Shown here piece by piece: positions 558 to 57,509 of a stretch of DNA of 64,000 nt. Numbering within the stretch: the stretch's first letter is position 1; each line of letters opens with the position of its first letter. Source of the DNA: Ulva prolifera (Eukaryota; Chlorophyta; Ulvophyceae; Ulvales; Ulvaceae). The notes below the pieces were generated by a model, which saw only the letters and a list, made by a program, of their open reading frames with translations, did no database searches and had not been told where the DNA came from. The stretch is taken from contig CM041204.1 of assembly GCA_023078555.1 (NCBI GenBank), positions 3,254,430 to 3,318,429 on the forward strand. The letters are read 5' to 3'. Position numbers and translations under genes: made by a program.

Positions 558-2878
558 TCAAATCCCAGTCTCGTCTACGATTTCCAGCTGCACGCTCGCT
601 GGGGCAACGGCACGGGCAAGGAGCTGCTCCACCTTCAACACGCGCTTCTCGGTTCGCGTCTCCCAGGCATCTTCGCTGTCGTCGCTGTCAGAGACGTCAT
701 CGGTGACGGGAGCCTCGGAGGGGTGGAGGTACACCGTCAGCTGCCGCAGCGCCGGCAGCTCGCCGATGTAGCGCTCCAGCGCCTCCGCCGCGTCGAAGGG
801 GTCGTACAGCGTCAGGGTCAGCTCCCGCAGCGCCGGCAGCGGCCGCGCCGCGAGCCGCCTTACCATATGCGTGTCTCGCTCTGAGGGTGTGAGGAGGAGG
901 TATGTGAGGGCGCTGAGGGCATGCATTGCACCAACGCATGCCACGTCCACCTGGAAGTTCTCTGGGGTGTGGTCCAGCCGCAGCCGCAGCAGGTGTATCA
1001 TGGCCGCAAGTGCCTGTGCGTCAGCTGGGCCGTGCAGGCAGCTCCAGCCATCGATAGACAACACAGTCAGCTGCGTGAGGGTGCTCAGGGCGGCCAGGCC
1101 ATTGTCCCTGAGCCTTGCTCCCCGGAAGTCCAGCTCGAGAGCTTGCAGCTTGTGGTCGCGCAGGCAGCGGAAAAAATCATGCCACGCGGAATCGGACGCA
1201 AGTGACACAGAGAGAGCGTTGACGTGGTCACAGGGGCCCAGGTTCAGCTGAGTCAGCGCAGTTGTGGCCAGCAGCGGCACGATGCGCTGTAGCACGGCAG
1301 GAGCTGCAGCTACAGAGATGTTCTGGAGCTGCTGGAGAGCTGTGAGCGCCTCAGGCAGTGCTGAGGTCAGTGCATTCCAAACACTTCTGTTTCGGCGCTC
1401 ATCTGTGGGGAGGACGGTGCTGAGGCAGCGCAGCTGTGTGAAGGTTGCTAGGCTGCGGACAAGGCGCCCGGCAGCATCTGCAGCGGAGTCTGGTATGGCC
1501 TTCGGAAAGGTTGGAGACTCGCTGAGCTCGAGGCTGGTGAGTGGGGCGCTGAGGTGGGTGAGGAAGGCGGCGCCCAGGTGGAAATCGTCTCGGAAGAGAG
1601 CTGTCAATCGGACCAGGTGCGGCATGCTCAGCGAGGTCGCTGCAGTGAAGCAATCTCGGCGCGTAAGATGGCTATTCGTAGCAACTCGGACGCACAGTGA
1701 GGTCAGGGCTGAGGCTGGGGATAGCATGGCGGCCAGGCAGTGGCGCGGCGGCGCTTCCGCTGCGGCATCTCGCTGGCGCTTCTTGGTGTTGTATATGAGC
1801 TTTCCCATCAGGTTCAACTTGAGATCGCGAAGGTGAGGCAGCGCTGCAAGGGCACGCTGCAGTCTCGTGGAGCTATCTTCGGGACAGATGACGCATCCTT
1901 GGAGGTCGAGCGAGTGGAGGTCGGTGAGAGAGGCCATTGCGGGGAAGAGGTGTTCGTGCAAGATGGACTTGGGGATCGATTCAGACAGAAGAAGGCTGGT
2001 GATGCCTGAGTGACGGTGCAGAACTTGCGCCAGAAACAACCAAACATCTTTGCCGATGCCCTCATTGCACATGGTGGGTTTGTGTCCAGCCACATGGAAC
2101 GACAGCAATGACGGTGAGGACGCTGGCAGAGACGCCAGGGCCTCGAGCGAGGGACCTGAACCAGAGGTAAGAGGCATATTGAACAGTCTCCCCGACGAGA
2201 TCATTGCTGAAAGCACTGCAGAACGAAGGCACATCGGAAAGAAGGCTAATAGGCGGCGGAGGTGCTTAGATTCGAAAGCTGCTGCTGCAAACAGTCGATG
2301 CTGCAGTTGACATGAAAGCCCAGATAAGGCATTTGCGTATTGACCTTGGACTTTCTTCGAGGAGGACGAAAGCGCAGCTTTGGTCAGCTCCCCCGCGGCA
2401 ATGCGGATCCATTGGTCAATGTGACTGTCGTCTAATGCATCTGCGACCTGCAGCAGGAACATCTCAATCAACTGCCTGGCACAGCATTTTCATGATACCT
2501 AAATGATGGAAGTGTCCACATGGAGCTGACACCGGCAAGCGATGGCCAATGGCGCTGAGCAGCATCCAGGAGTGACGACGGGTCAAGGCTTTCGTATGCA
2601 GATGGACGCGCGACCTTCATCGCGGTGCACATCAGCTCGAATGAACGGTTCTGAAACACAGTGTCACTTTCTGAGACAGCGCTGATCCAGCTCTTGAACT
2701 CTGAGAGTGTGACGCTGTCCGGCAGCTTGGCTTCACCGTCAGCCTCGGCCATGCAGGTCAACACACTACTGCGAGACACGGTGCTGCAGTCAACGACATC
2801 GTAGAAGACTAGCTGGCCGGACTTCACGTCGAAAGGCGCGGAGCGCGAGAAGTTCACGGGGTTGTCAATGGCAGGCAT
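558..2878 (-). CDS. SKP1/BTB-like LRR protein, array copy 1 (subfamily A)
   Basis: Two exons: 2615-2878 (88 codons) and 558-2447, joined by a 167-nt GT-AG intron in phase 0; 717 aa. Residues about 1-110 resemble a SKP1/BTB fold: SRSAPFDV-SGQLVFYDVV, then SSVLTCM, LPDSVTLSEFKSWI (like the SKP1 'LPNV...LKKVIQW' strand-helix), and after the intron VADALDDSHIDQWIRIAA (like 'AANYLDIKGLLD'). A helical stretch with RLFAAAAF and LLAFFP follows. LRRs run from about residue 234 (HSGITSLLLS) to near residue 660. A basic-acidic loop, KKRQRD, sits near residue 310. The tail is acidic and ends VQLEIVDETG. No signal peptide or membrane helix is visible. The start is the Met aligning with all paralogues; an in-frame Met at 2905 would add 9 residues. 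An intracellular protein-protein adaptor is an inference; no catalytic motif is seen. Closest to copy 4. Confidence 0.85.
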
Positions 2879-3216
2879 TGCGAGCTTAGGCTGTAACACA
2901 AACAACCGATTCCAGGCGAGAAAACTTGTTGAATGTCACTCATGCACAATCAGTGACCACCCTTGATGTCCACCCAGCTGTGCGGAATGCAACCATACAC
3001 CGTGTATACCTCTCGGGTGTCCACCAGTGACGCAGCGTGGTCGGGTGACTCGGGTCCTGCATCCAACGTGGTTAGGCCAGGCCGTCTGTCTGCATGAAGC
3101 TGATACTTTCAGCCTGACACCGACTCTTGCGGTCTGATCACCTGGCCTCGGTTATACAGACCAGTGAACGGGCATAGACACACTTAGCAGCTGAACTTTT
3201 GTCAATTGTGATCGAC
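2879..3216. other. Intergenic between copy 1 and the LINE
   Basis: This should hold the promoter of LRR copy 1, which reads leftwards. I see no convincing TATA box or repeat, and no gene. Confidence 0.4.
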
Positions 3217-6566: not shown

Positions 6567-6670
6567 CCACACACCGGACTGTAGGAGCCGGAACCCAGAC
6601 CAGACACCACACTCCACGACGCACACCGGACTGTAGGAGCCGGAACCCAGACCAGACACCACACTCCACA
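6567..6670. repeat. 52-bp tandem repeat, two units, 5' end of LINE
   Basis: Two nearly identical 52-bp units containing acaccggactgtaggagcc begin at about 6571 and 6623. They sit upstream of the LINE reading frame, where 5' UTR promoter repeats are common in LINEs. Confidence 0.75.
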
Positions 6671-11599: not shown

Positions 11600-13919
11600 T
11601 CAGCACCCAGTCTCGTTCTTTATTGTCAGCTGGATGCCCGCATGGGCGGCGGCTTTCGCGAGGCTCTCCTCCACCTCCCGCACCCGCTCCTCGGGAGAGG
11701 TCTCCGAGCCCTCATCGCCGTCATCGCACCAGGGATCGTCATCGTCAGTGGGCTTGCAGGAGGGGTAGAGGTACACCGCCAGCTGCCTCAGCTCGGGCAC
11801 CTTGCTGGAGCGCAGGTAGCGCTCGAGCGCCTCTGCCGCCTCGAAGGGGTCGTATATCGACAGGGTCAGCTCCCGCAGCGCCGGCAGTGGCGTACCATCC
11901 AGTTCCATGACGAGGTCCTCTTCTGGCTCTGACGTTTTGAGCAGGAGGTGTGTGAGGGCAGCGAAGTCCTCCAGAAAGTAGGGGAATTCCTGCGGCACCT
12001 GGAAGCCCTCGCTGGTGTGATCGAGGCACAGCCGCTGCAGCTGTGTCATGTCATAGAGGGCCGCTGTGTCGTCCGGGCTACCCAGGCAGCTCCAGCCATG
12101 GAGGCTCAACGCGGTCAGCTGCGTGAGGGTGCCCAGGGAGGCGAGGCCGTAGCCTGTGAGCTTGACTGCGCGGAAGTCCAGATGGAGAGCGTGCAGCTTG
12201 AAGGAGCGCAAACAGCGGAAGAAGTCGGGCCACTCAGATGCGGCTGGAGAGTCTGTTAGGTGCAGGGTGTCGTCTGGGCTGCACGCCGGGCCTAGGTGGA
12301 GCTGAGTCAGCGCTGTTGTAGCTAGCAGCTGTGCCACGCGCTGCAGTACGGTGGGCGCTGCAGCTATGGAGACGCTCTGGAGCTGCAGGAGAGCCGTGAG
12401 CGGCGTGGGCAGGGCTGACAGCAGTGCGTTCTGTACACTTGTTTTGCGCCGCTCGTCTTTCGGGAGTGTGGCGCTGAGGCAGCGCAGGTGGGTGAAGGCT
12501 GCGAGGCTGCAGAGGAGGCGCCCGGCATCTTCTGCTGCTGAGGGAGGCACATGCTTCGGGATGTTGAGGCCCTCGCCGAGAGTGATGCTGGTCAGGGGGG
12601 CGCTGAGGTGGCTGCAGAAGGCGGCTGAGAGGTGGACATCGCTCCGGAAGAGGGCTGTCAGCTGGACGAGCTGCGGCATGTGCAGAGGCGCAGACGCAGT
12701 GAAGCAGCTCCGGTACCCAGTGAGTGCCCCTTTGTCGACATGGATGTAGAGCGAGGTGAGGGCTGTGACTTTGTAGAGGATGTCAGAGAGGCAGTGGCGT
12801 GGGGATGCTCCTTCCTCGCGCTGGCGCTTCAAGGAGGGGTTGTGCCCGATCCTGAGCTGCAGGTCGCGCAGCTGAGACAGCGCATGGAGAGCTGCTTTGA
12901 GGGCGGATGAGCTCTCTTCATGACACATGATGCAGCCCTTGAGGTCGAGGGACTGGAGGGACGTCAGTGTGGAGACTTGTGATCGAAGGGCTTCGCTGGA
13001 GATGGCAGTGAAGCCTGATGCTGACAAAGAAAGGCTGGTCAGACCAGCGTGGCGTTTAAAAATCTGGGTGAGATACGACCAGACCTGACGCACGATTTTC
13101 TCTCCCCCATGGCTGGATTTGTCATCGTCAACGCGGAGTGACAGCAGAGGTGGTGTGGATGGTGGCAGGGTCGCCAGTCCTCTCAGGGAGGGACACGACG
13201 CAGCATTCAGCTGTAAATTGAATACCGTCTGCGGTGTGATGACACACGCAAGCACTGCGGAACGAAGGCTCGTTGGAAAGAAGTCTAGCAGCAGAGTAAG
13301 CTGAGTCGGTTTGAAAGCAGCTGCTTCATAAATATGGCATTGTAGATTATCTGAAAGCAGCTCCAAAGCCTGTGTAATTTCAGTTTTGTCGCTTTCGCGG
13401 CATGAACGCATCTTTAGTGCCAGAGCTTTTGCCGCGATGTGGACCCATGCGTCGATGTGTTTGTCGTCTACAGCTTCCGCGACCTGCAGTCCTCGCGCCT
13501 GTCATACGGGGCAGTCGAGCATATGGATGCTTGAAAAAAAATGATTGTCAAAACAAACTAGGACGACCTTTTGCGGCCAGCAGAGATGTCGATCCACACT
13601 AGCCATAGATGACATGCACCGTCGGTCGTGGCGGAGAGCGAGAAGGAGGCACGACCTTCATGATGGCGCACATATAGGCTAAGGGCCTACTCTGAAAGGT
13701 GTCATCGCTGTCTGTCACAGCACATAACCACTTTCTGAAGTCGGAGACTGTGACAGACTCCGGCAGCTTGGCTTCACCGTCAGCTCCGGCAACGCAGGAG
13801 AGAACGCTGCTGCGAGCCACGACGCAGGGCTCAATAACGTCATAAAAAATCAATCGACCAGGATCCACGTCGAACGGCGCCGATTGCGCTAAGTACACCG
13901 GGTGGGCGCAGCCTGGCAT
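11600..13919 (-). CDS. SKP1/BTB-like LRR protein, array copy 2 (subfamily A)
   Basis: Exons 13656-13919 and 11600-13483, intron 172 nt, 715 aa. The start MPGCAHPVYLAQSAPFDV matches copies 3 and 5; an in-frame Met at 13937 adds six residues. The SKP1/BTB-like part spans LPESVTVSDFRKWL and VAEAVDDKHIDAWVHIAA. LRRs start near residue 233 (HAGLTSLSLS, then TSLQSLDLKGC). The basic loop KRQREE is at about 307-312. A conserved LSLHGWSCLG occurs in the late LRRs, and YDPFEAAEALERY precedes an acidic tail (DDDDPWCDDGDEG) and the terminal IQLTIKNETG. Copies 2 and 3 are close relatives: their starts are 4.08 kb apart and both flanks are shared, which points to a fairly recent tandem duplication. Open throughout, so likely functional; biochemical role unknown. 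Confidence 0.85.
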
Positions 13920-15691: not shown

Positions 15692-18001
15692 CTAAGTTTC
15701 GTCGATGATGGTCAGCTGGATGCCCGCATGGGCAATGGCTTTCGTGAGGCTCTTCCCCACCTCCCGCACACGCTCCTCGTGAGAGTTCTCCGAGCCCTCA
15801 TCGCCGTCATCGCACCAATAGTGGTCCCCGACAGCCGGCTTTGAGGAGGGGTAGAGGTGCACCGTCAGCTGCCGCAGCTCGGGCACCTCGCTCGAGCCCA
15901 TGTATCGCCCCAGCGCCTCCGCCGCCTCGAAGGGGTCGTACAGCGCCAGGGTCAGCTCCCGCAGCGCTGGCAGCGGCGCACCTTCCAGCTCACTGACCAG
16001 TTCCACTCCCGGCTCTGACGTCTTCAGCAGGAGGTGCGTGAGGGCGCTGCGGTCATGCAATGATTCAACAAATTGCGGCGTCACCTGAAAGCCCTCGCTG
16101 GTGTGATCCAGGCGCAGCTGCTGCAGCTGAGTCATGGCATAGAGGGCCACTTCGTCGTCCAGGCTGCCCAGGCAGCTCCAGCCATGGATGCTCAGCGCAG
16201 TCAGCTGCGTGAGGGTGCTCAGGGCAGCGAGGCCGTAGCCTGTGAGCTTGACTGCGCGGAAGTCCATGTGGAGAGCGTGCAGCTTGAAGGAGCACAAACA
16301 GCGGAAGAAGCCGGGCCACTCAGATGCGGCTGGAGTGTTTGTCAGGTACAGACGGTCGTCAGGGTTGCACGCCGGTCCCAGGTGCAGCTGAGTCAGCGCT
16401 GTCGTGGCCAGAAGTGTCACAGCTCGCTGCAGTACGGTGGGCGCTGCAGCTATGGAGACGCTCTGGAGCTGCAGGAGAGCTTTGAGCGGCGTGGGCAGGG
16501 CTGACAGCAGTGCGTTCTGTACACTTCTCGAGCGTCGCTGATCTTTCGGGAGTGTGGCGCTGATGCGGCGCAGCTGTGTGAAGGCTGCGAGGCTGCGGAG
16601 GAGGTGCCCGGCGTCATCTGCGGCTGAGGGAGGCACGTGCCTAGGCATCTGCAGGCCCTCACCGAGTGTGAGGCTGGTGAGGGGGGCGCTGAGGTGGCTG
16701 CAGAAGGCGGCTGACAGGTGGACATCGTTCTCGAAGAGGGCTGACAGCTGGACGAGCTGCGGCATGTGCAGCGGCGCAGCCGCAGTGAAGCAGCTCTGGT
16801 AGCCGCTAAAGGCGGCTTTATCGACCTGGATGTGGAGGGACGTGAGTGCTGTGACTTTGTAGAGGGTGTCGGCGAGGCAGTGGCGTGGGGGTGCTTCTTC
16901 CTCGCGCTGGCGCTTCAAGGAGGGGTTGTGCCCGATCCTGAGCTGGAGGTCGCGCAGCTGAGGCAGCGCATGGAGGGCTGCTTTAAAGGCGGATGAACTC
17001 TCCTCAAAGAAGATGATGCAGCCCTTCAAGTGGAGGGACTGAAGGGACGTGAGTGTGGAGACTTGTGCCAGAAGGTGTTCGTTTGAGATGGCAGTGAAAC
17101 CCGATGATGACAAGTGGAGGCTGGTCAGACCGGAGTGGCTTCGAAATATTTTTGTTAAATGAGACCAGACATGCTGCGCGACTTGATATCTTCCGTGGTT
17201 GGAGCTGTCATCATCAATGCGGAGTGACAGCGGAGGTGGTGTGGATGGTGGCAGGGACGTCAACGCCTTCAGGGCGGGATACGACGCAGCATTCAGTGGT
17301 AAGCTGAAGACCGTATTTGCTGTGATGACCCCCGCCAGCACTGCGGGATGAAGGCTCGTCGGGAAGAAGTCTAGCAGCAGGGCAAGCTGAGTCTGGTCGA
17401 AAGCAGCTGCTTCATAAATGAGTCGCTGCACTCGAGCTGAAAGCAGCATCAAAGCGTCTGTGATTTCGATCTTTTCGCTGTCGCTGCATGAACGCATCTT
17501 CAGTGCCAGAGCTTTTGCCGCGATACGGACCCATGCGTCGATGTGCTTGTCGTCTACAGCTTCCGCGACCTGCAGCGCTCGCTTCTGAAAGCATCAGAAC
17601 TCAGTCTAGCAACGCCACAACTGTATGAAGAACACGATTGTAGATTCATGCGAGCATCAGCTCTTCGTGGCCAGACGAGCTCCACACTCCTGGACATGCG
17701 CTGACGGTCGCGAAGGATAGCGAGAAAGAGGCACGACCTTGACAATGGCGAGAACGTAGACTAAAGGCCTACTCTGAATGATAGCTTCACTGTCTGTCAC
17801 AGCATGGACCCAATTTCTGAAATCGGAGACTGTGATGGACTCGGGCAGCTTGGCTTCCCGGTCCCCTGCGGCAATGCAGGAGAGAACGTCGCTGCAAGCC
17901 ATGACGCCAGGCTCGACGACGTCATAGAAGATTAATAAACCAGAGTTCACGTCGAAAGGCGCCGAGCGCGAAAAGTACACCGGGTGGGCACAGCCTGGCA
18001 T
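15692..18001 (-). CDS. SKP1/BTB-like LRR protein, array copy 3 (subfamily A)
   Basis: Exons 17738-18001 and 15692-17569, intron 168 nt, 713 aa. It is the nearest paralogue of copy 2 over its whole length: same start (MPGCAHPVYFSRSAPFDV), same VAEAVDDKHIDAWVRIAA after the intron, same KRQREEE loop and LSIHGWSCLG. Exon 1 is more diverged (SDVLSCIAAGDREAKLPESI), and its last codons read VLAIVK rather than MCAIMK. The C-terminus is YDPFEAAEALGRY, a shorter acidic tail and IQLTIIDET. The second exon is fully open with no frameshift. As for its siblings, the fold suggests an intracellular adaptor; no enzyme motif is visible. Confidence 0.85.
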
Positions 18002-18718: not shown

Positions 18719-18845
<127 letters not shown>

Positions 18846-19882: not shown

Positions 19883-22152
19883 TCAAGCAGTCTCATCTTG
19901 AATCGATGACTGCACGCCCGCAAGAGCAGCGGCTAGTGTGAGACGCTGCGTCATCTCCCGCGTCCACTCATCATTATCATCGCTGTCGTAAAGGAGATCT
20001 GGGGAGTTGCGAAGGTGCACCGTCAGACACCGCAGCTCGGGAAGCTGGCCGACGTAGCGCTCGAGCGGCTCTGCCGCCTCAAAGCTGTCGTATAGTGCCA
20101 CGGTGAGCTCCTGCAGCGCAAGAAGCGGACGTGCCGTAAGCTCCCTGACCAGGTCCTCATCTCGCGCTGACGTTTTGAGCAGGAGGTATGTCAGGGCGCT
20201 TAAGGCATGCAGTGAGGTCACGCAAGCCGGCGACACCAGGAACTCCTTACTTGTTTGCTCTAGGGACAGCCGCTGCAGCTGTGTCATGGCCGCAAGTGCC
20301 TGCGCATCAGCGGGGCCGCACAGGCAGCTCCAATCATGGATCTTCAGCAAGGTCAGCTGCGTGAGGGCACTCAAGGCGGCTAGGCCAAAACCCATAAGCT
20401 TTGCTCTGTGGAAGTCTAGATCGAGAGCTTGCAGATTCAGGGAGCGCAGGCACCGAAAAGTTTCGGGCCAGTTGGGTTCAGGTGCAGTCGATCCGTAAAA
20501 AGTGTCACAGAACGGGCCCAACTGCAGGTGAGTCAGCGTAGTTGTGGTCAGAAGCGGCATGACACACTGCAGCACAGCAGGCGATGCAGCTACGAAGGCA
20601 TTCTGGAGATGCGGTAGAGGCGTGAGCTCCCCCGATAGTGATGAGATCATTGCTTCCTGTACGCTGCTTTGGCCGTGTCCATCTGTGGGAAGGACGGTGC
20701 TGAGGTGCCGCAGCTGAGTAAAGGCTGCTAGGCTGCGGAGCAGACGGCCGGCGTCATCTGCCACAGCACCAGGGACGGACTGCGGGCGACGGCGGAACTC
20801 GCTGAGCTCAAGACTGGTGAGGGGGGCGCTGAGGTGGGAGAAGAAGGTGGCGCCCAGACGGATGTCAACGCCAAAGAAAGCTGCCAGACGCACGAGGTGA
20901 GGCATGCGCAGAGGGCTCTCTGCGGTGAGGCAGAATCGGTCCATTCGAGGATTGAACGGATGTAGCGCCGCTTCAAGGTGAAGTGAGGTGAGAGCGGTGC
21001 ACGGGCACAGCATGGCGGCCAGGCAGTGGCGTGGTGTCGGCCCTGGTTCCACATCTCGCTGGCGCTTCAGGGACTCATCACTCTCTCCTACGAGTTTCAG
21101 CTTGAGATCACCCAGCCGAGGCAGTGCATTGAGGGTCTCTTTCAGGTACTTGGAACACTTGCCTGGGTGGATGATGCACCCTCCAAGGTCTAGAGACAGG
21201 AGGGACGTAAGTCTGGCGACTGCTGCAAAGAGGAGCTCGGGCGAGTTGGACTTGAATACACGTCCGGATAGACCGAGTCTTGTCAAGCGTGAGTGATGCT
21301 GCAGAAATCTCGTGAGAGACGACCCAATGTCTTGTCCCATGCCCTCCGCGCACTGGCTATGAACTGCATGAAACGACAGCACAGATGGTGGGCACGCTGG
21401 CAGAGACGCTAGGGCCTCGAGTGCGGGACCCGATCCGGGAGCGAGAGGCATATGTAATGACCTCTCCGACGAGATCATCGCCGACAGCACTACGGAATGG
21501 ATGCACGTTGGAAAAAAGGCTATCAAGCGGTTAAGGTCCTTTGAATCGAACGCAGCTGCCACCAGGAGTCGGTGCTGCAATTGACACGGTAGAACTGCTA
21601 AGCCCTGTACAACGTCTGTTTTGACTGTCTGCGAGCAGTTCGACAGCGCAGTGCTGGCTAGGTGCTTCGCAGCAACGCGGACCCATTCGGTAATGTGGCT
21701 GTCGTCTAAAGCATCCGCGACCTGCATCACAGAAAACTCATCCACAGCCTCACTCCAGCATTAGTTACATGATGAGATGACGGAACATTCGATGTAACGC
21801 AGACACCTGCCAACGATGGTCAAATGCGCTGAGCAGCATGAAGCCGCGTGGGCAGTGATGGCTTTCGTATGAAGATGTAAGACCACACCTTGATCACGAT
21901 GCACATGGTGTTGAACGGGCGATATCGGAATACGGCATCATCCTCTGAGACAGCAGCGATCCAATGCTTGAAGTCAGAGAGAGTGACGCTGTCCGGCAGC
22001 GTGGCTTCACCATCAGCTTCGGCAATACAGGACAAGACGCTACTACGAGACATGACATCACGTTCAACGACATCGTAGAAGACCAGATGGCCACAATGTA
22101 TGTCGAAAGGCGCCGAGCGCGAGAAGTGCACCGGGTTGTCGAGTCCAGGCAT
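19883..22152 (-). CDS. SKP1/BTB-like LRR protein, array copy 4 (subfamily A)
   Basis: Exons 21889-22152 and 19883-21721, intron 167 nt, 700 aa. The protein begins MPGLDNPVHFSRSAPFDI; its domain after the intron, VADALDDSHITEWVRVAA, and 'PALEALASLPA' in the pre-LRR segment group it with copy 1. LRRs begin at HHSRLTRLGLSG. The basic loop is KRQRDVEPG. The conserved Trp/Cys motif is IHDWSCLCGPADAQALAAM. The C-terminus has LYDSFEAAEPLERY and ends VQSSIQDETA with a short acidic stretch (YDSDDNDEW). Fully open. It is the last intact gene before the 13-kb transposon nest, which lies about 1.6 kb upstream of its start. Confidence 0.85.
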
Positions 22153-38952: not shown

Positions 38953-41475
38953 TCACTCAAATTCAGCCCCCACTATCACGACCTTGAGCCCCTTCCGGGC
39001 TGAGGCTCCGGCCGCCGCCGCAGTGAGGACCGCTTTCGCTCTGCGGAAGAACTCGCAAGCGACGTGGCTATTGTCTGGGATTTCGTCGGTGGGGTCAACG
39101 TCCTCACTGCCGACGGATGAGTCCGAGTCATGCTTAGAGCGAAGCATGTGCACTGTCAGCCGCGTCAGGCCCTCCCGGCAGGAGGCGTGCATCGCCAGCT
39201 ACTCTGCCGCCTCGAAGGGGTCGAACAGCGCCAGCGTCAGCTCCCGCACCGCCGGCAGCGGATCCGCTGTACGGGCGTGCACCACCTCCGCGTCGTTCTG
39301 AGCCAGGACGGTGAGCGCCGTGAGGGCTGTGAGCCAGGACGGTGAGCGCCGTGAGGGCTGTGAGCCAGGACGGTGAGCGCCGTGAGGGCTGTGAGCCAGG
39401 ACGGTGAGCGCCGTGAGGGCTGTGAGCCAGGACGGTGAGCGCCGTGAGGGCTGTGAGCCAGGACGGTGAGCGCCGTGAGGGCTGTGAGCCTGGACGGTGA
39501 GCGCCGTGAGGGCTGTGATCGCGTGCAGCGAGAAGATGCATGATGGCGGCACCTCGAAGCGGGCTCCGCCGGGGTCGAGGCACCGCCGCCGCAGGTGCGG
39601 CATGGACTTCAGCACCCGGCAGTCCGCGGGGCCCCGGATGCAGGCCCAGCCGCGGAGGCACAGCGCCGTCAGCTGCGTGAGGGAGCTCAGGGCGGCGAGG
39701 CCATGCGGCACAGAGCCCGCGTGCTCCATGAGGAGGCGGAGGTCTTGCAGCTGGAGGTGGCTGAGGAGCTGGAAGAGGTCCGGCTGCGGCAGCGGCAGCG
39801 TGCGCGTGCCGTCCATCAGCAGCGGGCACAGGCCGAGCCGGGTGAGGGTCGCCGCGCCGAGCAGCGGCACGATCCGCCGGACCAAGGAACGGTCTGTGGA
39901 GGCAAACAGGCTCAGGGGCTGGCGGAAGAACGTGTGCAGGCTGGGCAGGGCTGCCGTGAGGGCGTCGCGGATGCGGCTGTGGGGGTTCTGGTCTGCGGGG
40001 AGGGCGGCGCTGAGGCAGCGCAGGTGGGTGAAGGCTGCGAGGCTGCGGAGGAGGCGCCCGGCATCTTCTGCGGCTGCGGGTGGTTGGCCGAGGGAGCTGC
40101 CGTGGGATGGTCAGGTCCTCGCTGAGGGTGAGGCTGGTGAGGGGGGCGCCGAGGTGGCTGCAGAAGGCGGCTGACAGGTGGACATCGTCGCCGAAGAGGG
40201 CTGTCAGCTGGACGAGCTGCGGCATGTGCAGCGGGCAGCTGCCGTGAACCGGCTCTGGTAGCCGCTGAAGGCAGTCTCGTCCACCTCGATGTGGAGGGAC
40301 GTGAGCGCTGTGGCTGTGGAGATGGTGTTGGCCAGGCAGTGGCGTGGGCGCGCATTTGCACCCCGCTTGCGCTTCTTGGGGGGCTTGCTTGTGTCTGCCA
40401 CCCTGACTTTGAGATCGCGCAGCTCAGGCAGCGCGTGAACGGCTGCTCTCAAGCTGTGTGAGCGGCCTCTGCGTGCGCTGCCTTTGAGGAAGATGGTGCA
40501 GCCCGTCAGGTCAAGTGATCAGAGGGACGTGAGTTTGGTGACTTCTGGCAGAAGGGTCTCTTGTGAGATGGCAGCGATGCTCAACAAAGACAGAACGAGG
40601 CTGGTTACACCTGAGTGGCGGTGCAGAACTTGCGTGACACACGACCATGCCTCAAGCACGGCTTGCGCTTCGCTCAGGTCGGATCTGTCATCATCAATGT
40701 GAAGTGACAGCAGAGGTGGGGGAGATGGTGGCAGGGAGGCGAGCGCCCGCAGGGCGCCGCACGATGCAGGTGTAAGGGGTACACTGAACGATTTCTCCGT
40801 TGTCATGTATCCTGCAAGCACTGCGGCATGCAGGCTCGTTGGAAAGAAGTCCAGGAAGAGGGGAAGCCGCGTGGGAGCCAAAGCTGCTGCTGCTGTAAAG
40901 ATTCGACTCTGCAGCTCATGTGACAGCAGTGTCAGAGCCTCTACAGTAGCAGCTTTCCTTTCATCGACGGACGAACGCGTTCTGCATATCAGGCCATCTG
41001 CAGCGATCTCGACCCATTCGTCGATATGTTTGTCGTCGAGAGCATCTGCGACCTGCGGAACGCATTTTTGTCAGTGACTTTCAGACTGCTAATGGCATTA
41101 ACCGACGATAGACACGGTGCGACGCAAACATCAGCAGTTCATGGCCAAACGAGCTCCACACAAGTGAAGCTCTATCGCGGATCGCAGTGCGGGACGAGCA
41201 GCAGGAGCAACCTTAATAATGGCGCACATGGAAGGAAACGGCCGCCTCTGAAATGTGAGATCGTCGTCTGCCACAGCAGGGATCCACTTCCTGAAGTCGG
41301 AGACTGTGATAGCTTCAGGCAGCATGGCTTGACCGCCAGCTTCTGCAATGCAGGACAGCACGCTGCTACGGGCCATGACGTCAGATTCAGTGACATCATA
41401 GAACATCAACTGTCCAGAATCCACATGAAACGGCGCCGAGCGTGAGAAGTGCACCGGGTGAGCACAGCCCGGCAT
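38953..41475 (-). pseudogene. SKP1/BTB-like LRR gene, array copy 5, pseudogene (subfamily A)
   Basis: Exon 1 (41212-41475) is intact: MPGCAHPVHFSRSAPFHV, LPEAITVSDFRKWI. Exon 2 starts at 41052 with VADALDDKHIDEWVEIAA. Lesions read on the minus strand are a TGA in 'KLTSL*SLDLTGC' (about 40519), a frameshift after RFTAAA (about 40230), a second frameshift after LTLSEDLTIPRQLP (about 40100), and a TAG inside DPFEAAE (39199). The reading frame resumes after each lesion with recognisable family sequence (PRHCLA, MPQLVQLTALF, LVRRIVPLLGAATL, LRGWACI). A 31-bp minisatellite (39300-39516) replaces part of the late LRRs. The basic loop is KKRKRGAN. The last exon part is GC-rich and ends about 38953. 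Related to copies 2 and 3; not expected to make a full protein. Confidence 0.8.
39300..39516. repeat. 31-bp minisatellite, seven units, inside copy 5
   Basis: Seven head-to-tail 31-bp units starting gagccaggacggtgagcgcc at 39300, 39331, 39362, 39393, 39424, 39455 and 39486; the last has one change (gagcctgg). 31 is not a multiple of three, so three units give a 31-residue period. In one frame it reads LTALTALTVLA, the LRR word from which it seems to have grown. Confidence 0.95.
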
Positions 41476-42659: not shown

Positions 42660-45158
42660 TCACAAAAGCACCCAGCCCCTCTGCCACAGCTTGACAGGCC
42701 GCATTGCAGTCTGAGACACCTCAAGCTCTCTACCACTCTTGCGCTTGATGGCATGAACCGCCTCACTGAGGTCATCGAGGGGCCCCCGTGAGCCATCGTC
42801 CCTCAGGGCCAGATCAAGCCGCACCAGCGCTGGCAGCCTGGCGGCAAACCGGCCGGCCCTGCTGACTGTGCCAACTGCAGCAGTGTCGGCAAACCCCTCC
42901 CCTGCCGCCGCCTCGTCGTCTTCATTCCTGGGGCCTGCGAAGCGGCCCCAGACGTCCAGGCCGAGCTCCTGCAGCGCGGGCAGCGCCCCCGCCGGCACGT
43001 GCTCGTCGAGCAAGCCCGAGATGCAGCCCCCTGCCGTGGCGCTCCTGAACACGAGGCTCGTGAGCGCCGGCAGCTCGCCCAGGCAGCGCGCGCAGCCGCC
43101 GCGCAGGTGCCCCGGCAGCCGCACGCGGAGCAGGTGCAGCTGCCGCAGCTGCGTCATGCGGCCCAGCGCCTCACAGTCCCCTCGCCTCGCAATGCACCCC
43201 CACCTATCTAGAGACAGGGCTGTCAGATGAGGCATTCGGGGCAGCGCTGCGAGGCCTACAGGTTCTTGGAACTGATCAGGCGGCGTCATCCGGAGCAGCT
43301 GCAGGCGAGGCTGGGCCAGCTGCGTTAGAAGCGCCCGCCAGTCGGCCCGCTCAGAGCCCCACTGCGACATCGTAACCGTCAGGTCTGTCAGCTGCGTCAG
43401 CGCCGTGGCCATGACAGGCGCCGCGCAGCGCGTCACGGCAAGGTCGGCGTTGAGGTTGAGCGAGGTGAGGCGCGGCAAGGCTGCAATCAAGGTGGCGCAT
43501 CCGGAAGAAACTGCGTCGAGGATGTCGCGCATGTGGTGGTCGTGGGCCTCTGACGGCGTCATCGGGAACGCCATTGGATGATCAGTCGGGGTGGAGAGGG
43601 CTAGCGTCTGCAGCGACGTGAAGGTGGCGAGGCTGGCGTAGAGCATCTGGACGTCTGCCAAGACTTCGGTACACAGAAGGTAGACCCCGTCATCAAGCAG
43701 ATTGAGGGTGGTGAGGGGGGCGCGGAGAGCGCCGAGGATGGATGCACACGAGCGCGTGTGGAAGCTGTGAAACCTGAGCGCGAGCTGGCGCAGGTGTGGC
43801 ATAAACAGGGCACTGGTCGCTGCGAAGGAGCTTGTGGTGTTGTACACTGTGGACAGGTCCAGGGACGTGAGGCCTGAGGCGGCAGAGAGCATCGGCACGA
43901 GGCAGTGCTGCGGGAGCGGCGCAGTCTCGTCGTCGCGTGGGCGCTTGGGAGTGTCTTTGGCGTACAGGGAGATGGCGAGGTGCTGTAGCTGGGGTAGGCA
44001 TTGGAAGGTCTGCCGCAGTGTGGGCAGAAAGTCTGGGCCGATTTTGGTGTGCAGGTGGAGGGACTGGAGGGATGAGAGAGAGGCGATGGCTGTGGCCAGC
44101 TGCTTGAGAGATGCCGGGACGATGGCGGGCAGCGCCATCTGGAGGCTGGTGAGGCCTGAGTGGTGCTGGAGCGCCTGGGCGAGGCATGTGGCTGCTTCCT
44201 CATCAGTAGGCAACCCGGCAGCGACGCGCTCGCTGTGTTCCAAGTCATGGACACTGAGCGATACGAAGGCTGGAGGCGATGCCGGAAGACTCACAAGAGC
44301 CTTGGCTGCCTTCAGTGATTCACTCAATGGCGACACGAGGGTCCTGGTGTGTGAGACAGTGGCTTCCAGCACTGCAGCGTGGTCAAGGCTGGGCAGAAAG
44401 TCAACCACAAGGTGCAGGCAGGACGGATCGATAGCAGCAGCCGCGAACACGCGCCTCCGCAGCGAATCTGAAAGCTCCGCTAAGCCATCAGATATCACTT
44501 TGTGGGCTGGCTCATCGGCTGGAGCGAGTGTTGGTGATTTGCGTCCCTTGTGCCACTGTTGTTGACGGCAACGTGCTGCATTTCGAGCGGTGCTGTGCCA
44601 TAAAATGGTCCGAGGCTCTGACATGTGCTGTGTGTTTAAACATTCAATAGAAAGCACTTCCGGGCGACAGTCCTCGTCAAGATGGGTGGACTCATGAAGG
44701 AGAGTGGCTGCAGCCAACTGAATCCACTCACCGACCCGTCCGTCATCTAGAACATCAGCAACCTGCACAACGTGTGATCTATGATATCACTCGGTGAATG
44801 TGTGGCAATTTTCATTTGCTAGAATCCAGGACAGCGGTAGACTCGAGTGCAGTGGGCCGCTAGCAGCATTCCGCTGCAATCTGCCTGGAGGGCATACCTT
44901 CATCACAGTGCAGAGCACAGAAAACGACCACGTCTCAGCCTCTGTTCTAGCTGCATTTCCTTGCCTCAGCCACGTCTTGAACTCGGCCAACGTAACGCTG
45001 TCGGGCAGAACGGCTTCGCCTCCAGCCTCGACGATGCACGACAGAACGGCACTCCTAGCCATAGCGCTGGAATGGACAACATCGTAGAAAATCAATTGAC
45101 CCGAGTACGCATCAATAGGAGCAGATTGTGTCAGGCATACAGGACCGTCGAACGCCAT
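42660..45158 (-). CDS. SKP1/BTB-like LRR protein, array copy 6 (subfamily B)
   Basis: Exons 44898-45158 (87 codons) and 42660-44762, intron 135 nt, 787 aa. Subfamily B start: MAFDGPVCLTQSAPIDAYSG, then SAVLSCIVEAGGEAVLPDSV and VADVLDDGRVGEWIQLAA. It carries about 40 extra residues after STHLDEDC (to PAHKV), absent from copies 7 and 9. They could be an acquired insertion or an unrecognised small intron. The helical segment has DSLRRRVFAAAA and DFLPSLDHAAVLEAT. LRRs begin near residue 288 (HSGLTSLQMAL). The basic loop KRPRDD is at about 360-365. The variable segment before ILDAVSSG is short (MTPSEAHDHHM). Late LRRs show LSLDRWGCIARRGDCEALGRMTQLRQLHLL, quoted here as its conserved W/C and LxxL pattern, then LQELGLDVWGRF. 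The C-terminus after ELEVS differs from its siblings (RPVKLWQRGWVLL). Confidence 0.82.
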
Positions 45159-47542: not shown

Positions 47543-50041
47543 TCAGAAGGGCAGCTCCCCAAACTGTGACACCTCAAGCCCCCTGGCGGTCTCGCGGTCA
47601 TCGTCACGCAGCAACTCACTGCGGTCAACGCCTGGCCCAGCTGAGCCATCGTCCCGCAGCAGCAGATCGAGGTGCACAAGCGCTGGCAGCCTATTGGCAA
47701 AGTCGCGTACGCTAGTCATCGTGTGGATTGCAGCAGACTCGCCATGACCCACTGCCTCTTCCCCTGCTTCCTCCTCCCCCACTTCCTCCTCTACAGGTGC
47801 CCCCTCCTCCTCCACTTCGTCGGCCTCCTGCCCTTGATCCCCTGCCTCGTCCTCCTCGTCCTCTTCCTCGTCCTCCCCTTCAGCAGCATTCCGATCGAAG
47901 CGGCCCCAGATGTCCAGGCCGAGCTCTTGCAGCGCAGGCAGCGCCCCCTCCGGCACGTGCTCGTCCAGGAAGCCTGAGATGCAGCCCCCGGCCGTGGCGC
48001 TGTGGAACAGCAGGCTCGTGAGCGCCGGCAGCGCGCCCAGGCAGCGCGCGCAGTCGCGCCGCACCGCCAGCGGCAGCCGCATGCCGAGCAGGTGCAGCTG
48101 CCGCAGCTGCGTCATGCGGCCCAGCGCCACGCAGTCCTCCGACCTCGCCACACACGTCCAGGCGCCCAGGGAGAGGGCTGTGAGGTGCGGCATCGCAGGC
48201 ATTGCGGCAAAGCCCGGAAACCCAACAGACGAACATCCATTCAGCATGACTTTGAGCCGCTGCAGCCTGAGCCGAGCCAGCTGCTCAAGAGTCGGTCGCC
48301 AGTTGCCGCGCTCGGAGTCCCAGCGCGACAGTGTGGCTGTGAGGGCCGTCAGCTGCGTCAGCGCGGTGGCCATCACCGGCGCGGCGAGGTGCATGACCGA
48401 GACGTCGGTGCTGATGTTGAGGGAGGTGAGGCGCGGCAAGGCTTCGAGGGTGGTGGGGACACCTGAGGACACTGCGTCCAGGATGACGCGCGTCCGGCGA
48501 TGGGGGGGCTGCGGCGCCGGCGTGCGGCACTGCCGCATGAGCTCAAACAGGCTGGCAGGGTTGATGCTCATGCCCTGCTCTGCTGACATTGTTGGAATTC
48601 TCTCGCGCATCCGCTGCATGAAGTCGCCAGAGTCGTCGTCCCATGGCGTGGCGAGGGCCAGCGACTGTAGCTCTGTGAACGAGGCGAGCATGGGGAAGAG
48701 CATCTGGACGAGTTCCACGAAGTCTGCTGGCAATTCTAGGTCGTTGTCGTGGAGGATGTCGAGGCTGGTGAGGGGGGCACGGAGGTTGGCGAGGATGGAC
48801 GCGCACGACAGCATCTGGGAGTTGCCACAGTCGAGCACGAGCCGCCGCAGCTGTGGCATTTCGATGGTGCTCTCGGCTTTGACGCGGCACTCGCTGTCGC
48901 CCACTGCCACAGTGGAGAGATCCAGAGATGTGAGGCCTGTGGCAGCAGAGAGCATCGGCATGAGGCTGTGCATGGGTGCTGAGGCTCCGTCATCGTCGCG
49001 CTGGCGCTTGCGGGTGCCATAGGAGGAGATCGAGATGACAAGGCGCTGCAGGTGAGGGAGGGCGTGGAAGGTCTGCTGCAGCGTGGGCAGGCTGTCTGGG
49101 CCGATGCTGGAGTGGAGGAGGAGGTACTGGAGGGATGCGAGAGAGGCGATGGCTGGGGCCAGCTGCTTCAGAGCTGTCGAAGTGATGCATGCTAGCTTCA
49201 TTCGGAGGCTGGTGAGGCCTGTGTGGTGCTGGAGCGCTTGGACAAGGCATGTGGTTGCTAGCTCAGCTGCGGGTGACTCAGGCGTGATGGGCTCTTTGAA
49301 GTTGAGGTCGTGGACATCGAGGGAGAGGAAGGACGGAGGCGATGCCGGAATTGATGGAAGAGCTTTCAGTACCTTCAGTGATTCACGCAGAGGAGCGTTG
49401 AGCGTCATCGTTTCTTTGATGGTGGCTTCCAGCACTGCAGCGTGGTCACGGCTGGGCAGGACGTCAAGCACACGGTGCAGGCACGCTGGACTGACAGCAG
49501 CAGCTGCAAACACCCGCCTCCGTAGCGAATCTGGAAGGTGCGATAAGCTGTGAGACGCCTCATCCGGGCTGGCATCCCCAGCAAGACAGGCAGTCTCAGG
49601 AAGGAGACTGTCTGCGGCCAGCTTGACCCACTCACCAACACGTCCATCATCTAGAACATCAGCAACCTGAACAATGTGCGACACATGCTGTATCTGAGGG
49701 CAAGGGTGGCGGGCTGTGAACACTAGAAGCCAGAGCAACCACATAATCTTGAGAAGTGGACGCTGCAATCTGGAAGGCCCTACCTTCATCACAGTGCACA
49801 GCAGAGAAAACGTCCACTTCTTGGCCTCTGCAACCGTTCTGTTCCCTTCTTTCAGCCACGTCTTGAACTCCGCCAGCGTAATACTGTCGGGCAGAACCGC
49901 TTCACCTCCAGCCTCGACGATGCACGACAGCACCGCGCTCCTAGCGATAGCGGTAGAGTCGACAACATCGCAGAAGAGTAGCTGCCCTGAGAAGGCAGCA
50001 AGAGCGGACCGCTTTAGTTTCACAGGACCGTCGAAACCCAT
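47543..50041 (-). CDS. SKP1/BTB-like LRR protein, array copy 7 (subfamily B)
   Basis: Exons 49784-50041 (86 codons) and 47543-49666; 793 aa when spliced. The 117-nt intron (49667-49783) is a multiple of three and free of in-frame stops, so the whole locus reads as one 832-residue frame. The sister genes and the conserved GT/AG sites argue that it is removed. Start MGFDGPVKLKRSAL; VADVLDDGRVGEWVKLAA; LPDSLRRRVFAAAAV. LRRs begin near residue 234 (HTGLTSLRMKL). The basic loop KRQRDD is at about 306-311. The variable segment before ILDAVSSG is long (about 45 extra residues, MRERIPTMSAEQ...RQCRTPAPQPPHRR). After LQELGLDIWGRF comes a roughly 50-residue, almost purely acidic stretch (EDEEEDEEDEAG...) found in no other copy. 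Ends GLEVSQFGELPF. Confidence 0.85.
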   Translation of the reverse strand: MGFDGPVKLKRSALAAFSGQLLFCDVVDSTAIARSAVLSCIVEAGGEAVLPDSITLAEFKTWLKEGNRTVAEAKKWTFSLLCTVMKVGPSRLQRPLLKIMWLLWLLVFTARHPCPQIQHVSHIVQVADVLDDGRVGEWVKLAADSLLPETACLAGDASPDEASHSLSHLPDSLRRRVFAAAAVSPACLHRVLDVLPSRDHAAVLEATIKETMTLNAPLRESLKVLKALPSIPASPPSFLSLDVHDLNFKEPITPESPAAELATTCLVQALQHHTGLTSLRMKLACITSTALKQLAPAIASLASLQYLLLHSSIGPDSLPTLQQTFHALPHLQRLVISISSYGTRKRQRDDDGASAPMHSLMPMLSAATGLTSLDLSTVAVGDSECRVKAESTIEMPQLRRLVLDCGNSQMLSCASILANLRAPLTSLDILHDNDLELPADFVELVQMLFPMLASFTELQSLALATPWDDDSGDFMQRMRERIPTMSAEQGMSINPASLFELMRQCRTPAPQPPHRRTRVILDAVSSGVPTTLEALPRLTSLNISTDVSVMHLAAPVMATALTQLTALTATLSRWDSERGNWRPTLEQLARLRLQRLKVMLNGCSSVGFPGFAAMPAMPHLTALSLGAWTCVARSEDCVALGRMTQLRQLHLLGMRLPLAVRRDCARCLGALPALTSLLFHSATAGGCISGFLDEHVPEGALPALQELGLDIWGRFDRNAAEGEDEEEDEEDEAGDQGQEADEVEEEGAPVEEEVGEEEAGEEAVGHGESAAIHTMTSVRDFANRLPALVHLDLLLRDDGSAGPGVDRSELLRDDDRETARGLEVSQFGELPF

Positions 50042-51875: not shown

Positions 51876-53487
51876 CCCCTTCCCATCATTGCTGCCAGCA
51901 TGCCCATCGCCGACGGCGAGGGCAGCATACTCCGTATTCGCCGCCTTGTCTCGGCGGAGTTGTCATCGATCGGGGTGGCAAGGGCGAGCGACTGCACGCT
52001 GTGAATGTGCACACTGTGAATGTGGCGAGCATGGTGAAGTAGACCTGGACGGCGTCGATGACTTTCACAGGCACTGAAAGGCCTCTGAAATTGTGGTTGA
52101 GCATCTCGAGGCTGGTGAGGGGAGCGCGCAGGTGGACGAGGACGGACGTGCACGAGAATATGTGCATGCTGTCAAAGCTGATTGTGAGCTGGCGCAGCCG
52201 CGGCATGTTCAGGGCACTGGTCGGTTCGATATGGCATAAGTCGTGGCCCACGGTGGAGAGGTCCAGGGAGGTGAGGCCTGAGGCGGCAGCGAGCATGGGG
52301 ACGAGGCAGTGTGAAGGGCCGCTCTCTTCATTGCGCTTGCGCTTTCGGGTGCCTTCGGTGGAGAGCGAGATGGAGAGGTGCTGCAGGTGAGTGAGGGTGT
52401 GGAAGGTCTGCTGCAGTGTGGGCAGGCTGTCTGGGCCGATGCTGGAGTGCAGGAGGAGGGATTGGAGGGATGTGAGCGAGGCGATGGCTGGGGCCACCTG
52501 CTTCAGAGATGCCGACGTAATGCACGGCAGCTTCAGGTGGAGGCTGGTGAGGCCTGAGTGGTGCTGGAGTGCTTGGCCGAGGCACGTGGCTGCTTCCTCA
52601 GCTGCAGCGGAGTCGGGCGAATCAGGCTCCTCCAGCTCATCATCATGGACACGGAGGGAGAGGAAGGACGCCGGTGATGCCGAAATTGATGGCAGAGCTT
52701 TCACTATCGTCAGTGATCCACGAAGGTGCGCCTTGAGCGTCCTAGATTCTGTGATGGTGGCTTCCAGCACAGCAGCGTGGTCATGGCTGGGCAGAAGTCA
52801 AGCACACGATGCAGGCAGACTGAGTTGACCGCCGCAGCCGCCAACACGCGGCTTCTTAGCGGATGTGGCACCTTCACTAGGCCCTGGGACGCCTCTTCCT
52901 GGCTGCAGTGTCCTGCGACGTAGTTGGACCCTGGAAGGAGTCTGGCTGCAGCCATCTCAACCCACTCATCAACACGTCTATCGCCTAGAACATCAGAAGC
53001 CTGAACACGGTGCCTCATGTGAAAAGTCTGAGGGTACGCGCAGTGATTTCTTGGTACAAGAAGACACGACCACCGGAGGCGTCCCTCCCTCAAGCCGACG
53101 GTGCACCTCGTAGATGGGTGGAGGCGCTACCTTTGCGATGTGATGAAGGTAGCGCCTCCACCCATCTACGAGGTGCACCGTCGGCTTGAGGGAGGGACGC
53201 CTCCGGTGGTCGTGTCTTCTTGTACCAAGAAATCACTGCGCGTACCCTCAGACTTTTCATTTCGCTGCGTCTTCTTTGGTTGCGTTTCCATCTTTCATCC
53301 ATGTCTTGAACTCCGGCAACGTGAGGCTGTCGGGCAGAACCGTTTCGCCTCCAGCCTCGACGATACACGAAAGCACGGAGCTTCTAGCGACGACGTTGGG
53401 ATTCACGACATCGTAGAAAATCAATTGACCTGCGTAGGTCTCAACAGGAGCTGATCGTGTCAAACACACAGGACCGTCGAAGCCCAT
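51876..53487 (-). pseudogene. SKP1/BTB-like LRR gene, array copy 8, pseudogene (subfamily B)
   Basis: Exon 1 begins at 53487 (MGFDGPVCLTRSAPVETYAG, LPDSLTLPEFKTWM). It stops at a TGA immediately after DAAK, where a perfect inverted duplication (53020-53259) starts. Exon 2 begins about 52998 with ASDVLGDRRVDEWVEMAA. It has a one-base loss at about 52798 (LDFCPAMTT instead of LDFLPxxDHAA). It continues as MLEATITESRTLK through HSGLTSLHLKL and KRKRNEESGP. A small tandem duplication of ctgtgaatgtgcaca near 52000-52028 then shifts the frame again. Similarity ends near 51876 in the variable segment, so the late LRRs and C-terminus are lost. At least four separate lesions make a functional protein unlikely. 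Confidence 0.8.
53020..53259. repeat. Perfect 240-bp inverted duplication in copy 8
   Basis: Arms 53020-53133 and 53146-53259 are 114 bp each and identical as reverse complements; the spacer is 12 bp. The left arm, read on the minus strand, is the gene's own intron 1 from AAG|gtagcg onward. The right arm is an inverted copy of it, placed in the end of exon 1. Confidence 0.95.
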
Positions 53488-55050: not shown

Positions 55051-57509
55051 TCAGAAGGGCAGCTGCCTGTCATGCGACACCTCCACCTCTCTGCCGCTCT
55101 CACTCCCGCGTTTGATGTCAAGAAGCAACTCACTGAGGTCATCCTCTGGCCCATACGAGTCTTCAATATGCTCTAAGAGGAGATCAAGCCGCACGAGCGC
55201 TGGCAGCCTCTTGGCAAAGCGGCCAACACACACCGTCGTCTCCACTGCCGGAGTCGTGTCATACTCCATCTCCTCGCTTTCATCCTCATCGTCTGCAGGA
55301 TTAAACCACTTGAAGCGGCCCCAGATGTCCAGGCCGAGCTTCTGCAGTGCCTTCAGCGCCCCCGCCGGCACATTCTCCTCCAGCACGCCCGATACACACC
55401 CCTCGGCTGTGGCACTCTGGAACACGAGGCTCGTGAGCGCCGGCAGCGCGCCCAGGCAGCGCGCGCAATCACCACGCAGGTCTGTCGGCAGACGGACGCC
55501 GGCCAGGTGCAGCTTGCGCAGCTGGGTCATGCGGGCGAGCGCCTCGCAGTCATCCAGGCTCGCCAAACAGGCCCAGTCGGTTAGGGACAGGGCCGTCGGG
55601 TGAGGCATCAGGGGCAGCGCGGCGTGGCGTGGACTGTCCATATGAGTAAGTTTCAGCAACACCTGGAGCCGCTGCGGGCGTAGCTGGGCCAGCAGCTGTG
55701 GAAGCGCTGGCCAGGCGCCCCACGAGGGCGTCCAGCTGTAAAGCGTGAGTGTGAGGGCCGTGAGCTGCGTCAGCACGGTGGCCATCACCGGCGCAGCCAG
55801 GAGCATCACGGAGACGTCGGCGCTGAGGTTGAGGGAGGTGAGGCGCGGCAGGGCTGCGAGGGCTGTCGGGACTCCGGAAGAAGCTGCATCGAGGATGATG
55901 CGGGTCTCCGGTTTGTGGGGCCGCGGTGTCTCCAGGGGGTCTGGCACCGGGCCCTGGTGGGTGCTTGGCGGACGTACGTTCGGCGCTCGCCGCTCTCTTG
56001 ATGCTTGGAGTGCCATGGCACACCGCTGCATATCCTCAGCGGAGCTGTCATGCACCGGCGTGGCGAGGGTGAGCGTCTGCAGCGCAGTGAACATGGCGAG
56101 GCTGGAGAACAGCTTCCTGACGTAGTTCACGAACGGCGGAGGCAGTAAGATGCCCTCGTCGTGGAAGATGTCGAGGCTGGTGAGGGGGGCGCGGAGGGCG
56201 CCGAGGATGGACGCACACGCGAGCGTGTGTGTGCTGTCAAGCTGGATCTTGAGCTGGCGCAGCTGTGGCATGTGCAGGATGCTGGTTGCCTGAAACTTGC
56301 ATGCTGGTCCGCAAAGGGCGAGCTGAATTAACAGCGGGCGGGATGTTTCACGCACAGAGAACAGCTCCAGGGACGTGAGGCCGGAGGCGGCAGAGAGCAT
56401 CGGCACGAGGCAGTGTGACCGGAAAGGACCGCTCTCGTCATCGCGCGTGCGCTTGCGTGTGCCTCCTGAGGAGAGCGAGATGGAGAGGTGCTGCAGGTGA
56501 GGGAGGGCGTGGACGATCTGCTGCAGCGTGGGCAGGCTTTCTGGGCCGAAGCTAGAGTGCAGGGGTGCAAGAGGAGTGCTGGAGTGCAGCAGGAGGGACT
56601 GGAGGGACGTCAGAGAGGCGATGGCTGGGGCTAGCAGCTCGAGAGGCACCGAGGTCATGCACGGCAGCTTTATCTGGAGGCTGGTCAGGCCTGAGTGGTG
56701 CTGGATTGCTTGGGCGAGGCATGTGGCTGCTGTCTGGGAGGAAGAAGACGGGTGCATGATATGATGATCGTGGGAATGGACGTTAAGAGAGAGAAAGGAG
56801 GGAGGCGATGCTGGAATTGACGGCAGAGCTTTGGCTATCTTCAGTGATACACTCAAAGGCGCCTCGAGCGTTTTGGTATCTGTGATAGTGGCTTCCAGAA
56901 CAGCAGCATGGTCATGAAAGGGCAGGAAACCGAGCAAACGGTGCAGGCAGTCTGAGTCGACGGCAGCAGCCGCCAACACGCGTCTCCGTAGCGGATGTGA
57001 CAACTTCGCTAGGCCATCGGACGCCTCTTGCGGGCTGCAGTGACCTGACACGTATCTGGACGTAGGGAGTTTGGATACAGCCAGCTGAACCCACTCACCA
57101 ACACGTCCATCGTTCAAGACGTCGGAAGCCTGAACAGCGTGCGGCATGGGTCTATTTGAGGGTAAGTATAACGGGTTGAAAATACTGGGAGCCAGGACAA
57201 GCGCAGACTTCTGTGCAGCGGACTCTGCTGTCAAGGTGGACGCGCTACCTTCATAACAGTGCAGAGCAAAGTAAATGCCCACTTTTTCGCAGCTGACTTC
57301 TTCACGTTGCCATGTTTTAACCACATCTTGAACTCCGACAAAATCAAGCTGTCGGGCAGAACCGCTTCTCCTCCAGCCTCGACGATGCACGACAGCACGG
57401 CGCTCCTAGCGACAGCGCTGCTATCGATGACATCATACAATATCAGCTTACCTGAGTAGGCCTCGAGAGGAGCAGAATTCGTTAAACACACAGGACCGTC
57501 GAAGCCCAT
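55051..57509 (-). CDS. SKP1/BTB-like LRR protein, array copy 9 (subfamily B)
   Basis: Exons 57249-57509 (87 codons) and 55051-57129, intron 119 nt, 779 aa. Start MGFDGPVCLTNSAPLEAYSG; after the intron ASDVLNDGRVGEWVQLAV, where Ala-Ser replaces the Val-Ala of copies 6 and 7, as in copy 8. Then HPLRRRVLAAAAV and GFLPFHDHAAVLEATI. LRRs start near residue 235 (HSGLTSLQIKL). A small in-frame duplication gives LLLHSSTPLAPLHSSFGPESLP where siblings have LLLHSSIGPDSLP (quoted to show the pattern). The basic loop is KRTRDD. The variable segment before ILDAASSG is proline-rich (RPPSTHQGPVPDPLETPRPH). After LQKLGLDIWGRF a short acidic stretch (DDEDESEEMEY) follows. It ends VEVSHDRQLPF. Fully open; first gene of the array in transcription order. 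Confidence 0.85.

Follow-up and report, generated by a model that had tools for sequence, protein, structure and literature searches.

Can a SKP1-type adaptor module and a leucine-rich repeat (LRR) recognition module be carried on one polypeptide chain in a green alga? This question is raised by a tandem gene family of Ulva prolifera, nine copies of which lie in a 64,000-nucleotide (nt) stretch of contig CM041204.1 (assembly GCA_023078555.1, positions 3,254,430 to 3,318,429), referred to here as the window. An earlier sequence-only reading of this DNA had proposed that the N-terminal 110 residues of each protein carry a SKP1/BTB fold, followed by a helical middle and an LRR body. We found indirect support for a SKP1-type origin of the N-terminal module, which came through an intermediate sister group of sequences and not through a confident structure, and the LRR body was backed by both predicted structure and Pfam.

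All nine exon-1 copies were located on the minus strand, each starting at the higher coordinate of its first row in Table 1, and the whole copies had one layout in common: exon 1 is short, exon 2 is long, and a short intron in phase 0 separates them. This bears out the proposal of nine same-strand paralogues with a single gene structure. In particular, exon 1 comprised 86-88 codons and ended in AAG directly before GT in all eight whole copies, the intron measured 117-172 nt, and exon 2 opened with (V/A)(A/S)(D/E). Exon 2 was open over 612-707 codons in seven of the nine copies; copies 5 and 8 were broken, in agreement with the pseudogenes that had been anticipated. The 110 residues of the proposed N-terminal fold correspond to exon 1 plus approximately 22 residues of exon 2. 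Two additional copies adjoin the window on its left and extend the array to 11.

The relationship to SKP1 was found by way of five N-terminal sequences that form a sister group to the family (four from contig C4 and one from C1). In hhalign comparisons, this group scored 30.6 against the family profile (51 rows) and 26.4 against a set of seven SKP1 and elongin C sequences, and none of 300 column shuffles scored as high at either step. Ten real decoy profiles reached at most 18.5 against the family or the sister group, and the comparison of SKP1 with three BTB domains of the same genome, used as a yardstick, gave 25.2. Because the family matches the sister group and the sister group matches SKP1/elongin C, a SKP1-type origin of the module is supported indirectly. 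Additionally, a C4 gene had its splice donor at the position used by the family, followed by an intron of 744 nt, a next exon that starts with AADYLDD and LRRs downstream. This motif resembles AADYLDA in the probable elongin C of the genome and AANYLNI in its SKP1, which are encoded by separate genes. L010, a divergent SKP1-like gene at C2:4190908 that was left out of the sister group, passed the Pfam Skp1_POZ cut-off (23.0 against 21.9), and with the family profile both L010 and the C4 sister gene L085 scored higher than 1600 shuffled decoys. No LRR was recognised by eye in 1.5 kb of frames downstream of L010.

Several results weigh against this relationship. The probability assigned by hhalign itself was 56% for the step from family to sister group and 22% for the step from sister group to SKP1, and both profiles in the chain were thin. 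With the family profile, L010 and L085 fell short of the HMMER inclusion threshold (E 0.04), and the genome's own SKP1, elongin C and three BTB domains, as well as L088, did not rise above decoys. A direct comparison of the family and SKP1 profiles gave scores at shuffle level. Pfam yielded no SKP1 or BTB match in two exon-1 frames and five main-family N-termini or in seven sister or bridge N-termini, and no Skp1_POZ match at E <= 10 in five main-family and four divergent N-termini. A PDB search with a profile of eight N-termini returned a stathmin-like chain as its sole match (E 0.0012). The structure models that had been suggested as a check were of low confidence in this region: the exon-1 model had a mean predicted local distance difference test (pLDDT) score of 40.6, and the N-terminus of the full-length model remained below 60, with residues 1-56 below 50. 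The score of the family against a BTB profile was 10.6, within the range of 60 shuffles (up to 17.1), and identity with the canonical BTB domain (PF00651) was rejected, as there was neither a Pfam match nor a profile score better than shuffles. Of the proposed SKP1/BTB fold, the SKP1-type part thus finds support, by way of the intermediate group only, and the true BTB part finds none.

The remainder of the protein was better defined. The LRR body consisted of repeated beta-alpha solenoid units of the ribonuclease-inhibitor type, and the helical middle between this body and the N-terminal module was supported at modest confidence in the predicted structure; both regions agree with the sequence-only reading. 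Among the Foldseek matches listed, which do not exclude folds outside them, LRR-F-box ligases took ranks 1, 4, 6 and 8 (7sa1, 2p1m, 3ogk, 2p1q), with low template modelling scores of 0.24-0.28 by query length, and the LRRs of nucleotide-binding LRR (NLR) proteins and of RNase inhibitor were also among those listed for the LRR body. At E <= 1, the ten window frames scanned contained no Pfam match to an F-box or to NB-ARC/NACHT. A fusion of SKP1, F-box and LRR was rejected, as the F-box profile score of the middle region (11.4 in hhalign) was below those of shuffles (60 shuffles, up to 15.9).

We also found a KR[QPT]R[DE] motif in all seven open window copies, in a loop that lies between LRR strands and is modelled at low confidence; the motif resembles a nuclear localisation signal. 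A looser KR pattern occurred in 34 of 56 loci rows, corresponding to 25 distinct copies after six likely chance occurrences and three repeats were removed. KR-rich stretches were additionally present in LRR frames downstream of one C5 and one C2 exon 1. Downstream LRR frames of C5, C2 and C4 outscored 300 shuffled decoys with the window LRR profile, their placement on a shared transcript with exon 1 being putative.

The ratio of nonsynonymous to synonymous substitution rates (dN/dS) was calculated for nine of the 21 possible pairs among the seven open copies; these pairs are not independent. The ratio was below 1 wherever computable. It ranged from 0.20 to 0.39 in exon 1 and from 0.41 to 0.66 in the LRR, and exon 1 had the lower value in all nine pairs, if only narrowly in the pair of copies 2 and 3 (0.39 against 0.44). 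Over the 22 codons following exon 1, the pair of copies 1 and 4 was exceptional (0.52) and two pairs were saturated. A hypervariable concave LRR face was rejected; exposed beta-strand residues varied no more than exposed helix residues, a result that also counts against the one-chain receptor explanation given below. The description of the family as rapidly evolving recognition proteins therefore holds for gain and loss of copies and not for fast sequence change.

Used as a genome query, a single exon 1 returned 111 rows, from which we tallied the 95 at E <= 4.4e-7 and left out 16 weaker ones; counts from this type of search are lower bounds. Four of these 95 rows contained a stop. The contig holding the window (C9; 5.68 Mb in a genome of 88.9 Mb and 44 contigs) carried 86 of the 95, in arrays of 23, 19 (one copy reversed), 11 and 8 copies as well as smaller groups, and with these E-values and this concentration the family is not a product of chance. 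In 54 of 59 loci rows, some of them overlapping, a GT donor was followed by an acceptor that keeps the frame ahead of the family motif (46 distinct copies); five rows did not pass this pattern. For 33 of 43 clustered copies the nearest relative was in the same cluster, compared with a mean of 9.3 and a maximum of 23 in 2000 label shuffles. Local tandem duplication was the main source of the copies, some of which have since been lost. More divergent clusters were present at C5:9.00-9.10 Mb (16 rows at E <= 5e-8) and C4:2.44-2.48 Mb (seven rows at E < 1e-8), bringing the exon-1 matches in the three tandem expansions to approximately 118 (95 of the C9 type, 16 on C5 and 7 on C4). In the 23-copy array (C9:2.427-2.567 Mb), pairs of copies had equal score and identity (e.g., 2438497/2536161 and 2482658/2557631), which suggests a recent segmental duplication.

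The window copies differed in several details (Table 1), and the variable loops that had been noted were confirmed as variable insertions. In copy 5, a stop at 40519, 177 codons into exon 2, indicates that this copy is probably a pseudogene, the alternative being a further intron. The LRR-coding region of copy 5 also holds a 31-bp tandem array at 39299-39518 (7.1 copies, 99% alike), the unit of which is not a multiple of three. Copy 6 had approximately 53 additional residues near the start of exon 2, possibly a second intron, and the 117-nt intron of copy 7 contained no in-frame stop. In copy 8, exon 1 is split by a foldback element of approximately 240 bp (53020-53259) with two arms of 114 bp each, the frame shifts near 52790 and the family match stops near 51908; the arms are perfect, which suggests that the insertion is recent. 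Elsewhere in the window, a reading frame for an endonuclease of the long interspersed nuclear element (LINE) type lies at 4396-6720 on the minus strand (Exo_endo_phos, 1.3e-15) and includes a 52-bp repeat (1.9 copies, 6570-6669). The region 22300-38000 has lower GC content and plus-strand frames with weak matches alone (C2H2/BED finger, DUF3645, OPA1_C).

Table 1. Positions of the gene copies and their parts within the window.
Feature	Position	Strand	Remark
Copy 1 exon 1 (first part of SKP1-like module)	2615..2878	-	
Copy 1 exon 2, open (module end, helical middle, LRR)	558..2447	-	
Copy 2 exon 1	13656..13919	-	
Copy 2 exon 2, open	11600..13483	-	
Copy 3 exon 1	17738..18001	-	
Copy 3 exon 2, open	15692..17569	-	Pfam LRR_14 5.7e-13
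Copy 4 exon 1	21889..22152	-	
Copy 4 exon 2, open	19883..21721	-	
Copy 5 exon 1	41212..41475	-	
Copy 5 exon 2 region with stop and 31-bp array	39064..41052	-	
Copy 6 exon 1	44898..45158	-	
Copy 6 exon 2, open	42660..44762	-	
Copy 7 exon 1	49784..50041	-	
Copy 7 exon 2, open	47543..49666	-	
Copy 7 LRR body (model residues 212-797, 17 predicted strands)	47651..49408	-	
Copy 7 basic loop RKRQRD	48995..49012	-	Within low-confidence loop, model residues 342-357
Copy 8, broken	51908..53487	-	Exon 1 split by foldback insert; frame shifted; match truncated
Copy 9 exon 1	57249..57509	-	
Copy 9 exon 2, open	55051..57129	-	

How might such a protein work? As proposed, a single chain would begin with a SKP1/elongin C-type POZ module, encoded by exon 1 and the first part of exon 2, and continue through a short helical linker into a ribonuclease-inhibitor-type LRR with the conserved basic loop KR[QPT]R. 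The N-terminal module would dock on a partner that all copies have in common, for which a cullin scaffold or another POZ module is the most plausible choice. The LRRs would differ from copy to copy in the ligand or substrate that they bind, and the basic loop may direct the protein to the nucleus. A common docking partner with differing ligands is suggested by the greater constancy of the N-terminal module and the greater diversity of the LRR. The genome contains SKP1 and three cullin loci, and the presence of the latter makes a cullin the natural docking candidate; binding of a cullin by the module is plausible. We infer cullin docking, ubiquitination, nuclear localisation and a recognition role for the family, and the proteins may be receptors made in one piece that act in protein disposal or in defence. 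As an explanation of the whole, the one-chain arrangement of SKP1-type POZ module, linker and LRR, with a docking N-terminus and a recognising LRR, was judged to have about an even chance of being correct.

The main rival to cullin docking is POZ-driven assembly. According to this explanation, which we regard as possible but doubtful, the SKP1-like module is real but serves dimerisation or assembly, and the proteins are LRR scaffolds or immune-type sensors without a ubiquitin function. POZ folds often dimerise, and the LRR resembles those of NLR proteins and RNase inhibitor. Two results count both for this explanation and against cullin docking: the only genome matches at E <= 10 to the C-terminal F-box-binding domain of SKP1 (PF01466) were two, both in true SKP1 on C3, and neither Tyr nor Phe occupied the position equivalent to SKP1 Tyr109 in any of 46 distinct copies. 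This tyrosine is presumably a CUL1 contact at the cullin face, although a literature look-up on N108/Y109 gave no support for this. In contrast, the C4 sister gene L085 retains the tyrosine (in AADYLDD), and cullins and SKP1 are both available in the genome.

Two other alternatives were weighed. It is unlikely that the N-terminal 110 residues form a small alpha/beta domain of other origin, whose likeness to SKP1 is coincidental. The lack of a confident model, the absence of Pfam SKP1 matches from the main family and the sister group and the shuffle-level direct score would all be expected in that case, but both steps of the profile chain exceeded every shuffle and were on a par with the true relation between SKP1 and BTB, L010 passed the Skp1_POZ cut-off, and the C4 gene shares both the intron position and the SKP1-like motif. 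More improbable still is that the tandem copies come and go by a mostly neutral process of birth and death, on a contig prone to duplication, and that few of them are functional. The confinement of most copies to one contig, the excess of nearest relatives within clusters, the two broken window copies and the LINE fragment and foldback element nearby fit this explanation, whereas the dN/dS values in exon 1 and the LRR, the splice junction kept in most loci rows and the conserved KR loop argue against it.

We compared the family with known systems that join or pair such modules. BTB proteins (BTB-Kelch and BTB-MATH) are one-chain CUL3 receptors, and LRR is not known as the usual partner of BTB; they are similar to the family in carrying adaptor and recognition modules on one polypeptide and differ from it in that the family has no BTB profile match. 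NLR immune receptors form large tandem LRR families with pseudogenes, as here, but their nucleotide-binding domain was not found in the window frames scanned. For the F-box-LRR proteins (FBXL, TIR1, COI1, D3), which are partnered by SKP1 and are represented among the top structural matches, SKP1 and the LRR sit on different chains, with an F-box as the link between them, and the family has no F-box signal. In the available part of its description, the PEX1 family of Protochlamydia has an N-terminal BTB and a C-terminal LRR, with 73 members and BTB in all but three (PMC4209131). It is like the present family in joining a POZ/BTB-type N-terminal module to a C-terminal LRR in one chain and in having grown large through gene birth and death. 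In contrast, the PEX1 proteins, as that part presents them, are bacterial, are proposed to be secreted effectors and have a recognisable BTB, whereas the Ulva family is eukaryotic and spliced, has no Pfam BTB and carries a module nearer to SKP1/elongin C.

In the trypanosome TbCul-G complex, the portion of the report available describes one cullin whose partners are a Skp-1 paralogue and three LRR proteins; the latter have no F-box, and the authors propose them as client receptors (PMC12816148). The likeness, drawn from description and not from homology, is that a SKP1-type protein pairs with F-box-less LRR proteins; the difference is that its modules are on separate chains, whereas the Ulva family has one chain and forms a large tandem family. 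For a diatom, LRR families in tandem and BTB families are reported, and in the available parts of that report the two are not combined in a single chain (PMC7335047). By title and abstract, none of the open-licence papers that our searches listed described a SKP1-LRR or BTB-LRR gene family from an alga or a protist. Viral relatives were considered and rejected; 21 stretches matched the patterns and none was confirmed. Adaptor and receptor on one chain are thus already known, from BTB proteins and from the Protochlamydia BTB-LRR family, and the statement of the sequence-only reading that the two are separate polypeptides in known systems does not hold. What would set the Ulva sequences apart is a SKP1/elongin C-type module in the same chain, in a eukaryotic spliced gene with a KR loop and a one-contig expansion.

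The boldest form of this interpretation, which we hold to be rather unlikely, is that SKP1 itself, and not BTB, became the front end of a one-chain repertoire of approximately 118 matches, mostly on one chromosome, combining the N-terminal module, the LRR and a nuclear-targeting loop. These proteins would serve as cullin-ligase receptors made in one piece, for recognition inside the cell or in the nucleus, and would hold the role that NLR or F-box-LRR proteins have elsewhere. If the one-chain explanation itself is right, a eukaryote would have fused what others assemble from SKP1 and F-box-LRR chains, in approximately 100 copies mostly on one contig, and the family would join BTB proteins and chlamydial BTB-LRR proteins as an example of adaptor and receptor on the same chain. 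It would also offer a natural system for asking what SKP1-type modules need for cullin binding.

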